Virus record (IMG/VR): IMGVR_UViG_3300028563_000334
Location: 1-47,403 of that record
Length of the DNA stretch: 47,403 bases
Strand: one strand, 5' to 3'
Origin: a virus
Shown: piece by piece, positions 42,653-46,405 of the stretch
Numbering within the stretch: the first letter of the stretch is position 1
How the letters are laid out: each line of letters starts with the position of its first letter
Notes under the pieces: generated by a model
The model's database searches: none
What the model saw: the letters and a program-made list of their open reading frames with translations, nothing else
What the model was told of the DNA's origin: nothing
Made by a program: the position numbers and the translations under genes

Positions 42653-43561
42653 ATGAAAAAAAATCAAGAAGAATTACAGGAAGCATTAAATAATTATAAA
42701 GAATCAGCTAATTTAAATATTCAAAATCCTGAAAATAAAGCACAATTAGCAGCTACAAATATTCCGATTGCCAATACTTTTAATAGTAATGATTATCAAA
42801 AACAATTAGAAAAGGAAACTGATACTGATCTTATAACAGGATATGAAATAATTAAATTACCTTCTGAAGGATTATATTATTCTCATCGTATTTCTGAAGT
42901 AACAATTGAATATATGACATCTAAAGATGAGGATGTATTAACAACTCCTTCATTAATTGAAAATGGAACAGTATTAGATGTATTATTAAAAAGAAAAATT
43001 AAAACTAAGGGTATTAGTGTTGATGAATTATTACCTGGAGACAAGGATGCTTTATTATTATTTCTAAGATCAAGTTCATATGGTTCAGAATATAAAGTTC
43101 AAGTCTATGATCCAAGAAATGGTAATCCATTTAATAGTGAAGTTGATTTAACTAAATTAAAATATAAAGAAATTGATGAAAAACCTGATGATAATGGTTT
43201 ATTTTTTGTTGAATTACCCATGCGTAAAAAGTTTGTTAAATTTAGATTATTAAAATCAAATGAAACAAATCAATTATTTAAGAATGCTGAAGCAATTAAA
43301 GAAGCATATAATCAAGAGCATAATGAATATAATACAATGAAATTAAAAGCTTCAATAGTTGAAATTAATGGCAGAAATGATAGAACATATATTGATAAAT
43401 TTGTTGATGCAATGCCAGCTAAAGATGCATATACTGTTAGAAAAAAAATACTAGATGTTTCACCTGGAATAGATATGAGATATGAATTTACAACCAAGGA
43501 TGGATATAAATTTTTATCAACATTAAGTATGGGTGTGGATTTTTTTTTCCCAAATCTTTAA
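42653..43561 (+). CDS. tail assembly chaperone/baseplate protein, T4 gp26-like (zero-frame product)
   Basis: The 302-residue protein has LPSEGLYYSHRISEVTIEYMTSKDEDVLTTPSLIENGTVLDVLLKRKI, then ELLPGDKDALLLFLRSSSYGSEYKVQV and a C-terminal FTTKDGYKFLSTLSMGVDFFFP. This matches the T4 baseplate protein family (gp26-like), which has 'lPS.G.fY......i.v...t..de..L.......g...d.ll.......dll.gDr..ll..lR..syG'. It ends seven codons after GAT in a run of nine T. It lies directly before the tape measure gene, where tail assembly chaperones with programmed frameshifts are usual. A coding extension continues in the -1 frame. Confidence 0.7.
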   Translation: MKKNQEELQEALNNYKESANLNIQNPENKAQLAATNIPIANTFNSNDYQKQLEKETDTDLITGYEIIKLPSEGLYYSHRISEVTIEYMTSKDEDVLTTPSLIENGTVLDVLLKRKIKTKGISVDELLPGDKDALLLFLRSSSYGSEYKVQVYDPRNGNPFNSEVDLTKLKYKEIDEKPDDNGLFFVELPMRKKFVKFRLLKSNETNQLFKNAEAIKEAYNQEHNEYNTMKLKASIVEINGRNDRTYIDKFVDAMPAKDAYTVRKKILDVSPGIDMRYEFTTKDGYKFLSTLSMGVDFFFPNL

Positions 43562-43749
43562 CGGGTAATTATAAGAAAATGATTGAAGAAGAATTATATA
43601 TACTTGTTAAACATGCAAATTTTGGATATGATGAAGCAAAAAATTTACCAGTTTATAGTAGAAGACTTCATCTAGGATTTTTACAAAAAGAGCTTAAAGA
43701 AACCAAAGAAATACAAGATGCTGAAGCAGCAAAAATAAGAAGAAAATAA
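43540..43749 (+). CDS. -1 frame extension of the tail chaperone
   Basis: In the -1 frame from the T run (43540-43548) the reading goes FFFPKSLTGNYKKM and on without a stop to 43749, adding about 69 codons. The heptamers T-TTT-TTT and T-TTT-TTC, followed by CCC, are good slippery sites. The segment after the internal ATG (43579) is 56 residues, charged and helical (HANFGYDEAKNLPVYSRRLHLGFLQKELKE), like the T domain of lambda gpGT by position, not by sequence. Separate initiation at 43579 is possible but lacks a visible ribosome site. A homopolymer sequencing error could produce the same picture. Confidence 0.65.
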   Translation, partial: FFFPKSLTGNYKKMIEEELYILVKHANFGYDEAKNLPVYSRRLHLGFLQKELKETKEIQDAEAAKIRRK

Positions 43750-43776: not shown

Positions 43777-43803
43777 AATCCGGTCATTTTGGTCGGATTT
43801 TTT
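43777..43803 (+). terminator. intrinsic terminator after chaperone
   Basis: AATCCG (43777-43782) pairs with CGGATT (43794-43799), then a run of T. It separates the chaperone from the tape measure transcript, which has its own late-type motif. Confidence 0.65.
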
Positions 43804-43837: not shown

Positions 43838-46405
43838 ATGGCACAAAAAGCTAAGATTGGAGATTTACGTAAAGAATTTAATGAAACAAATGCTCTCCAA
43901 GATAAATTATTAGAACTTCAAAAAGCTGAAATTAATAACATTTCTGACATATATAATATGAAAAAGAAATTATTAACAGCACAAACTGAATATAATGCTG
44001 AACAACAAAAATTAAATAATATTGTAGATGCTTATCAAAAAAAGATTAATGATGGCTATACAACAACAAAACAAACAAAAGATGCTCTCGACAAGGAATT
44101 AAAAGCACAACAAAATCTTGTAAATGCTGCTGATAAAAAATTAAAGACCCAACAAAAAATAAATAATGCTTTATCAGTAATGAAATTAAATTATGATGCT
44201 ATTGGTAAAGGTGTTACATCAATATATAAATATTTACAAGATTCAGATAAGATAATAAGACAAACAACATTACAATTAGGTTTAAGTGGTCAAAAAGCAG
44301 ATATGATGAGATCTTCATTTGAAGATTCTGCTGGGTTTGCTGCAAGATTAGGCGCAAATATTGGTGATATTCAAACAGTTATTACAACATTTGCTGATGA
44401 AACTGGTCGTGCTAAAATATTAACTTCTGAAATGCTTAAAGATTTTATAATGATTGGTAAAGGTACTGGTCTTGGCGTTGAAGAAGCAGCTAAATTAGGC
44501 GGTCAACTTGAATTAATGGGTTTAAATGCCAGAGCAAGCATGGAATATGTTCAAGGTATTGTTATTAATTCAGAAAAAATGGGAGTTAATACATCTCAAG
44601 TATTAAAAAATATATCATCTAATTTTAAAACATTACAAAAATTTACATTTCAAGCAGGTGCAGCAGGTATTGCTAAAATGGCTGAATATTCTGCTAAATT
44701 TAAAGTTGATATGAGTCAAGCATTAGATTCGGCTCAAACAGCTAGAAGCCTTGAAGGTGCAATAAATTTAATGGCAAACTTACAAGTTATGGGTGGAGAA
44801 TTTGCTAAAGCAGATCCATTTGAAATGTTATATTTATCTCGTAATGCTCCTGAAGAATATGCTAAGAAAATAAATGAAATGACAAAGGGTATTGCTAATT
44901 TTAGAAAAACAGCAAGCGGTGTATTTGAAACATTTATTTCTCCTATGGATATGGATCGTTTAGAAACTGTTAGTAAAACATTAGGAATAGATAAAACACA
45001 ACTTGTTGAGCAATCTAAAAGAATGGCCGAAATTCAAAGAATGCGTCAACAAATGATTGCTTCACCATTATCTAAATCACAAAAAGAAATAGTTGAAGGA
45101 TTAGCACAATTTGATAGTAGAACTGGTCAATTTTTTGTTAAAATTGGTGATAGTGTTAAAGACATATCAAAAATTGGTGCTAATGAAATAAAAGTTATAC
45201 AACAACAATCTAAAACATTAGAACAAAGAGCAATGGCAGCTCAAACATTTGATGAAGCATTTAAAGCAACAATTAATGAATTAAAAGCAGGACTACTACC
45301 CTTTTTAAAAGGTATAAATAGTGTATTAGATACTATAAGGCCAATCATGACTCAATTAGGTGAAGCATTTAATAAATTAACAAATGCTACAGGGCCTTGG
45401 ACTAAAATTGCAATAGGAATTGGAATACTAGGCACAAGTAAAGTTTTAATGCCATTAGCATCTATATTAAAAACTAATATTGCTAATAGAATAACACCTA
45501 ACTTTATTAAAAATGCTAGAACAGCAACAGCAGGTAAAGGAGTAAGAGGTATTGCAAGTAAAGGTGGTGGATTAGGAGGATTAGCTACAGGTGCAGGTAT
45601 TGGATTAGCAGGTTTAGGCGTTGGTGAAGGTTTAAATTTAGCAGCACAAGGTATTAGTAGTATTGGTGATGCTTTAGCTAAATTATCGCCAGAACAAGCA
45701 AAAACATTTTCGAGTATTATATCATCATTAAGTATTGTTGTCGGTATAGGTGCAGCAGCAGCAGCAGCAATAATGATATTTGGAACAGCATCAACAGCAG
45801 CATCTGTTGGATTATTAGCATTTGGTGCATCTGTTGCATTAGTAGGTGTTGGAATAGGTGCAGCCGCAGCAGGTATTGGAATAATGGGTGAAGGTTTATC
45901 TAAATTAGTAAATGCTGGTAAAGATTCTGGAACATCATTATTAAAAGTGGCAGCAGGTATTGGAGCAATACAATTAGCAATGGCAGCAGGTGGAATAGCT
46001 ACAATATTAACTGGAGGTTCTGGTATAATGGCGTTTACTTCTACTATGAATAACTTAAGTAAAAATGCTCCAGCATTAGCTAATGTTGGTGATGCGTTTA
46101 AAAGTATTGGAACTGTATTAACTGGAAGTAAAGATCAATTTTCTAATATAACTGCAATGATTAATGCAATTAATACAATGGATAGTAAAAAAATGTCACC
46201 ATTATCTGACTTAGCAAATATGCTTAAACAACCTCTTAAAGTTGAATTTGCTAATAAAGAAGTAGCAATTGTTTCAAATGTAACTTTAAATATTGATGGA
46301 AATAAAGTAGCATCAAGTATCAATATTGGAGGCACTGGAATGATTCAATTGGATGGTCAAAGAACAGGCAAAATACCACCTAAAACAATTAATAAATATG
46401 GATAA
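43838..46405 (+). CDS. tail tape measure protein
   Basis: The 855-residue protein begins with a long heptad-rich coiled coil (about 1-125), has a central helical domain, and a C-terminal region with Ala/Gly-rich membrane-like helices (about 550-720: AAAAAIMIFGTASTAASVGLLAFG and similar). This is the classic tape measure layout: it sets tail length and crosses the host membrane. Position after the chaperone with frameshift supports it. The C-terminus (VTLNIDGNKVASSINIGG) is a strand pair seen at the ends of many tape measures. Confidence 0.9.
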   Translation: MAQKAKIGDLRKEFNETNALQDKLLELQKAEINNISDIYNMKKKLLTAQTEYNAEQQKLNNIVDAYQKKINDGYTTTKQTKDALDKELKAQQNLVNAADKKLKTQQKINNALSVMKLNYDAIGKGVTSIYKYLQDSDKIIRQTTLQLGLSGQKADMMRSSFEDSAGFAARLGANIGDIQTVITTFADETGRAKILTSEMLKDFIMIGKGTGLGVEEAAKLGGQLELMGLNARASMEYVQGIVINSEKMGVNTSQVLKNISSNFKTLQKFTFQAGAAGIAKMAEYSAKFKVDMSQALDSAQTARSLEGAINLMANLQVMGGEFAKADPFEMLYLSRNAPEEYAKKINEMTKGIANFRKTASGVFETFISPMDMDRLETVSKTLGIDKTQLVEQSKRMAEIQRMRQQMIASPLSKSQKEIVEGLAQFDSRTGQFFVKIGDSVKDISKIGANEIKVIQQQSKTLEQRAMAAQTFDEAFKATINELKAGLLPFLKGINSVLDTIRPIMTQLGEAFNKLTNATGPWTKIAIGIGILGTSKVLMPLASILKTNIANRITPNFIKNARTATAGKGVRGIASKGGGLGGLATGAGIGLAGLGVGEGLNLAAQGISSIGDALAKLSPEQAKTFSSIISSLSIVVGIGAAAAAAIMIFGTASTAASVGLLAFGASVALVGVGIGAAAAGIGIMGEGLSKLVNAGKDSGTSLLKVAAGIGAIQLAMAAGGIATILTGGSGIMAFTSTMNNLSKNAPALANVGDAFKSIGTVLTGSKDQFSNITAMINAINTMDSKKMSPLSDLANMLKQPLKVEFANKEVAIVSNVTLNIDGNKVASSINIGGTGMIQLDGQRTGKIPPKTINKYG

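Follow-up and report, generated by a model that had tools for sequence, protein, structure and literature searches.

Evidence for a programmed −1 frameshift extending a gp26-like tail assembly chaperone in a clade of uncultured large phages

The gp26-like gene and its slippery site

The window analyzed here is the whole of the 47,403-base virus record IMGVR_UViG_3300028563_000334, and its relevant features are collected in Table 1. Near the 3′ end of a 302-aa gp26-like gene, nine Ts (43540–43548) are followed by CCC (43549–43551). The frame-0 codons at the site are GAT (43538–43540), TTT (43541–43543), TTT (43544–43546), TTC (43547–43549), CCA, AAT, CTT and TAA (43559–43561), and two overlapping heptamers, T_TTT_TTT (43540–43546) and T_TTT_TTC (43543–43549), present the X_XXY_YYZ pattern of a canonical −1 signal in frame. 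In the −1 frame the window reads FFFPKSLTGNYKKMIEEELYILVKHANFGYDEAKNLPVYSRRLHLGFLQKELKETKEIQDAEAAKIRRK*, open up to 43749. An earlier note on this DNA, made from the letters of the window, had placed the T-run, the frame-0 stop and the end of the −1 frame at these positions, and all three agree with the sequence. The predicted −1 fusion is 365 aa long versus 302 aa for the frame-0 product, and would contain a junction peptide such as FFFPKSLTGNYK. By chance, 0.09 occurrences of TTTTTTTTTCCC are expected per window. As for a second gp26-like copy, the protein has a single match in the 47-kb record, which may be a fragment.

Table 1. Features of the window around the predicted frameshift site
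Feature	Position	Strand	Basis
TAC-N, gp26-like (T4_baseplate), frame-0 product of 302 aa, predicted short tail assembly chaperone	42653–43561	+	PF12322, phrog_150, 80 related loci
Slippery run T9-CCC with overlapping heptamers	43540–43551	+	sequence; same site in 72/72 relatives reaching it
TAC-C, −1-frame C-terminal extension of 66 codons past the slip, with stop TAA 43747–43749	43549–43749	+	pN/pS, HMM match to shifted-frame extensions of other phages, predicted fold
Putative stimulatory stem of the window, 43557–43567 pairing with 43601–43611, 11 bp, 7 nt past T_TTT_TTC	43557–43611	+	weak, z −1.1 to −1.8
Frame-0 stop TAA, starting 10 nt past the end of T_TTT_TTC	43559–43561	+	sequence; conserved in relatives
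Terminator-like hairpin and T tail, between the −1 stop and the tape-measure candidate	43777–43799	+	sequence
Candidate tape measure, 855 aa, next gene downstream	43838–46405	+	position and length only

Conservation of the site in relatives

A scan of IMG/VR yielded 80 relatives: four contigs that stop short of the site, four distant loci with other sites, and 72 loci that carry it. Together with the window these make 73 loci, two of them on contigs that break off inside the extension, and removal of near-identical sequences left 53 dereplicated sequences, the window included (52 relatives). All 73 loci have a correctly phased T8–T9 run at the same codons, with a frame-0 stop and a −1 extension beyond it. 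The slippery run and the −1 frame, which the earlier note had proposed to compare in homologues, are both conserved in every one of the 72 relatives that reach the site.

Among the dereplicated sequences, the site is T9 in 48, GAC-T8-CCC in three, T8-CCCC in one and T8-CTCC in one. All five T8 variants retain one complete heptamer in phase, namely T_TTT_TTC alone in the three GAC-T8-C sequences and T_TTT_TTT alone in the two others, where CC or CT follows T8, and at least one heptamer is found in 53 of 53. Two overlapping heptamers, as first remarked upon, are present in the window, but just one appears to be needed. The first and second Phe codons of the site are TTT in all 53 sequences, while other invariant Phe columns hold 4–16 TTC each. 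Given the pooled TTT usage of 80%, such uniformity would have a probability of about 3 × 10⁻¹¹ if the sequences were independent, which, being related by descent, they are not. Shared descent makes column counts overstate independence; the invariant Phe columns elsewhere in the gene are the better control. The frame-0 stop is TAG in 50 of 53 sequences and TAA in three, at an identical distance from the site in 52. At the level of sequence comparison, we regard the conservation of the site as the decisive evidence that the signal is real.

The −1 extension

Past the frame-0 stop, pN/pS is 0.28 in the −1 frame versus 0.93 and 1.40 in the other two frames, and stops occur at 0 of 3150 codons versus 143 and 410. 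The Leu codon of the −1 frame that overlaps the frame-0 stop is TTA or CTA in 51 of 51 sequences. These values indicate that the extension is under purifying selection, and in the −1 frame only. With the −1 frame selected and the frame-0 stop retained, the short and the long product therefore both appear to be maintained. AlphaFold2 predicts a confident three-helix domain for the extension (mean pLDDT 89.5).

No relatives turned up when bacterial genomes were scanned with the 69-aa extension, and neither TAC-N nor the extension has a sequence match among solved structures. We also considered, and rejected, the possibility of a frame left open by chance: the 69-codon open frame survives in 11 of 20,000 dinucleotide shuffles of the window, and no relative has a stop in the −1 frame.

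RNA structure downstream of the run

In many relatives, single-sequence folds give a helix that begins 6–7 nt after T_TTT_TTC, together with an inner hairpin (mean z −1.9). Covariation was counted on the 53-sequence alignment, where the two-helix structure has 48 cells with both sides changed, as compared with 24 ± 4 in shuffles (0 of 500) and 6–18 in slid versions. As a guard against shared G+C drift, all 427 variable column pairs were ranked by correlation, and the helix wobble pairs 47–68, 20–83 and 26–77 took ranks 1, 2 and 4. As judged by these counts, the relatives keep a covarying RNA helix at this spacing 3′ of the heptamer.

The relatives’ helix is not kept by the window and several other divergent members. 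The putative stem of the window starts at the same place with other 3′ partners, and its 11-bp pairing shows no covariation support. RNAalifold consensus folding of 18 or 53 sequences gave nothing useful, because the slippery Ts pair with As and the divergent members lack the stem; a search of Rfam returned nothing of note.

Relationship to T4 gp26 and gp51

The window protein matches PF12322 (T4_baseplate) with an E-value of 4.9e-9 (36.6 bits, curated cut-off 24.5) and PHROG 150 (phrog_150) with an E-value of 3.1e-10. T4 gp26 and gp51 also match both profiles and are clearly related to each other by profile comparison. On these matches, the window protein belongs to the T4 gp26/gp51 family. 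In positions of the phrog_150 profile, the match spans 14–235 for gp26 and 13–280 for gp51, and 18–233 for the frame-0 product and 18–282 for the −1 fusion. The extension raises the PHROG score of the window protein little, from 41.0 to 44.1 bits (~3 bits), and the match of the fusion thereby reaches the part that is present in gp51; in a direct profile comparison, the similarity of the extension to gp51 was not significant. The pair is best read as TAC-N and TAC-NC, a function suggested by family and position.

The extra C-terminal part of gp51 would then correspond to the −1 extension of the window. In T4 each of the two forms has its own gene, the two lying on opposite strands, whereas the window would produce both from one gene by a frame shift. 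T4 gene 26 (L085, 5803–6429) is itself annotated with a shorter product, 26′, that shares its stop, and is another two-product member of the family.

Direction of the shift across the family

Further scans and annotated phages brought the survey to 264 loci in which the TAC-N stop could be read; a few of these represent the same contig twice. An extension HMM, built from the −1 clade and a +1 clade, places the extension in a shifted frame in 256 of the 264: in the +1 frame in 176, in the −1 frame in 80, and in frame 0 in none. The remaining eight comprise the cut contig L047 and loci below the HMM cut-off, most of them with weak matches. Immuto-like and related phages (MW353176, PP395634, about 170 IMG/VR loci) have a TAC-N and an extension homologous to those of the window, but with the extension in the +1 frame, mostly at TT[TC]-[TC]TT-TNN-CC, the commonest site being TTT-TTT-TGG-CCT. 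The homologous extension is 60–100 codons long in the +1 examples L092–L171, L083, L082 and others. A +1 slip of the tRNA, from YTT to TTT, would fit these sites.

In three further loci, L086–L088 (GXN1, LIS04 and SP-15), TAC-N ends in xCC-CGA and the extension continues as ...PD... in the +1 frame; conceivably, a +1 shift takes place at the CGA codon, which may be slow.

On a tree of 178 dereplicated TAC-N proteins, the −1 loci fall into three separate groups of 46, 3 and 2 members (three parsimony changes). In the two-member group (L272 and L278) the extension is an apparent separate ORF with its own ATG just past the TAC-N stop, and L272 is also without the T-rich site; this lineage appears to have given up the frameshift. 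We lean towards the view that, in the gp26/gp51 family, (i) the direction of the shift has switched between +1 and −1, with the window clade using −1 and a covarying helix, (ii) one lineage has dropped the shift for a separately started C-terminal gene, and (iii) the two genes of T4 represent another way out. Ranging from −1 and +1 shifts to a separate ORF and two genes, these arrangements form a natural series that bears on why two forms are kept and on how a recoding signal changes direction.

The long form is absent from the public annotations examined (Mel-JY01, immuto, LIS04, SP-15, BRock and LuckySocke); after a gene labeled ‘baseplate hub’ or hypothetical, they show either a small hypothetical ORF or a gap. 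Recognizing the shift would mend the annotation of many uncultured and cultured contractile phages.

Proposed mechanism and alternatives

Building the tail tube around the tape measure requires tail assembly chaperones. We consider it highly probable that the gp26-like gene makes a short and a long tail assembly chaperone by a programmed −1 ribosomal slip, a proposal of the earlier note that now has strong support from conservation, selection and covariation. The gene would encode the TAC-N of a contractile-tailed large phage, the label “jumbo” deriving from relatives in contigs of 300–366 kb, the window itself being 47 kb. A minority of ribosomes would slip back one base at TTT TTC in T_TTT_TTC, or at TTT TTT one codon earlier, bypass the frame-0 stop and add 66 residues to give TAC-NC. 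Stimulation of the slip would come from an RNA helix lying within a few nucleotides of the site on its 3′ side. As for lambda gpG/gpGT, binding of the tape measure would fall to the short form and recruitment of the tube protein to the extended form.

Alternatively, the polymerase could add one U at the T9 run in some mRNAs, whose normal translation would then yield the long form. Transcriptional slippage at nine Ts has been described in bacteria (PMC5009743), and T9 is found at 48 of the 53 dereplicated sites; however, the other five sites have only T8, with the heptamer kept in phase. The preference for GAT at the preceding Asp codon (50:3 in the dereplicated sequences) is not unusual among invariant Asp columns, and therefore T9 is not clearly selected over T8. 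Furthermore, outside the clade, the sites of most relatives are T7 or TTTCTTT, and their shift is +1. The main argument comes from the covarying helix, which lies 3′ of the run and would not yet be formed when the polymerase slips; it would thus act on the ribosome rather than on a polymerase still transcribing the run, which favors ribosomal slippage and makes the transcriptional route unlikely.

Translation of the −1 frame as a separate small gene, from its own ATG (KKM, 43579–43581) and with no fusion, is far less probable still. Of 52 sequences, 47 have the ATG as codon 14 of the extension, the extensions of L272 and L278 have their own ATG past the TAC-N stop, and T4 uses separate genes; but the ATG is absent in five of the 52, and neither the invariance of the TTT TTT codons nor the helix would be explained. 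Between the site and the ATG, the −1 frame is conserved at the protein level, its codons changing synonymously (Tyr and Lys in 52 of 52, Leu in 51 of 52), and we reject a separately started gene because the conservation of the −1 frame begins ahead of the ATG. Finally, a homopolymer error in sequencing or assembly that split one continuous frame, the caveat first attached to this site, is hardly credible: nine Ts are error-prone and the window is from a metagenomic collection, but the 52 dereplicated relatives remove the concern, with run and frame break recurring in 72 loci from many separate metagenomes in the variants GAC-T8, T8-CC and T8-CT, the frame-0 stop itself conserved, and homologues with a fused single frame, which were looked for, found at 0 of 264 loci.

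Comparison with known systems

Frameshifting is reportedly conserved in several T4-like groups, and T4 is said to use genes 26 and 51. The earlier note had taken a frameshift in the T4 gp26 family to be new, but the subject was treated by Vladimirov, Gautam & Davidson 2022 (Virology 566:9–15), who, according to two later papers (PMC12846349, PMC10885494), identified the chaperones of T4-like phages. In these papers, T4-like phages are described as using a short gene and a separate fused gene (PMC10885494, citing Vladimirov et al. 2022), and polyT −1 signals are described in TAC-N genes of T4-like phages (PMC12846349, citing Vladimirov et al. 2022). Since a frameshift is reported in T4-like TAC genes, the window is a further case of a known kind. 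What is apparently new is the uncultured clade, its RNA helix, the family-wide mix of −1 (in the clade) and +1 (in most relatives), and the two loci with an extension start codon of their own; our literature search, which took in a minority of the subscription papers, found neither the covarying helix nor the +1/−1 mix reported for the gp26/gp51 family.

In lambda gpG/gpGT, too, the reading of a chaperone gene that precedes the tape-measure position shifts by −1 close to its 3′ end, at a slippery site that differs from that of the window. We know of no kinship between the lambda proteins and those of the window. The extended form of lambda makes up a low share (PMC5009743), and, among long-tailed phages, T4 is the stated exception to conservation of the G/GT frameshift (Atkins et al. 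2016, PMC5009743). Another comparison is with the TAC genes of Vandenendeviridae and Andersonviridae (phage Adele), other phage families in which, as in the window, a T-rich −1 site lies at the end of TAC-N; the motif is an invariant GTTTTT, the −1 frame is open for >200 bp in all genomes and routinely unannotated, and RNA structure goes unmentioned in the available text of that source (PMC12846349).

Neighboring genes

The 855-aa candidate tape measure had no match in Pfam or PHROG, and none by tblastn in the phage collection. An 857-aa gene stands at the corresponding place in L006, and the annotations of immuto, SP-15 and LIS04 assign the tape measure to the next large gene. Given the terminator-like hairpin upstream of it, transcription of the candidate gene may start from a separate promoter or depend on readthrough. 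On the other side, 33 nt separate the TAC-N ATG from the end of a lone TnpB/OrfB_IS605-like gene (PF01385, PF07282; 41363–42619). This gene is missing at that place in L006, where a PhoH-like gene directly adjoins TAC-N, which suggests that it was inserted into the tail module.
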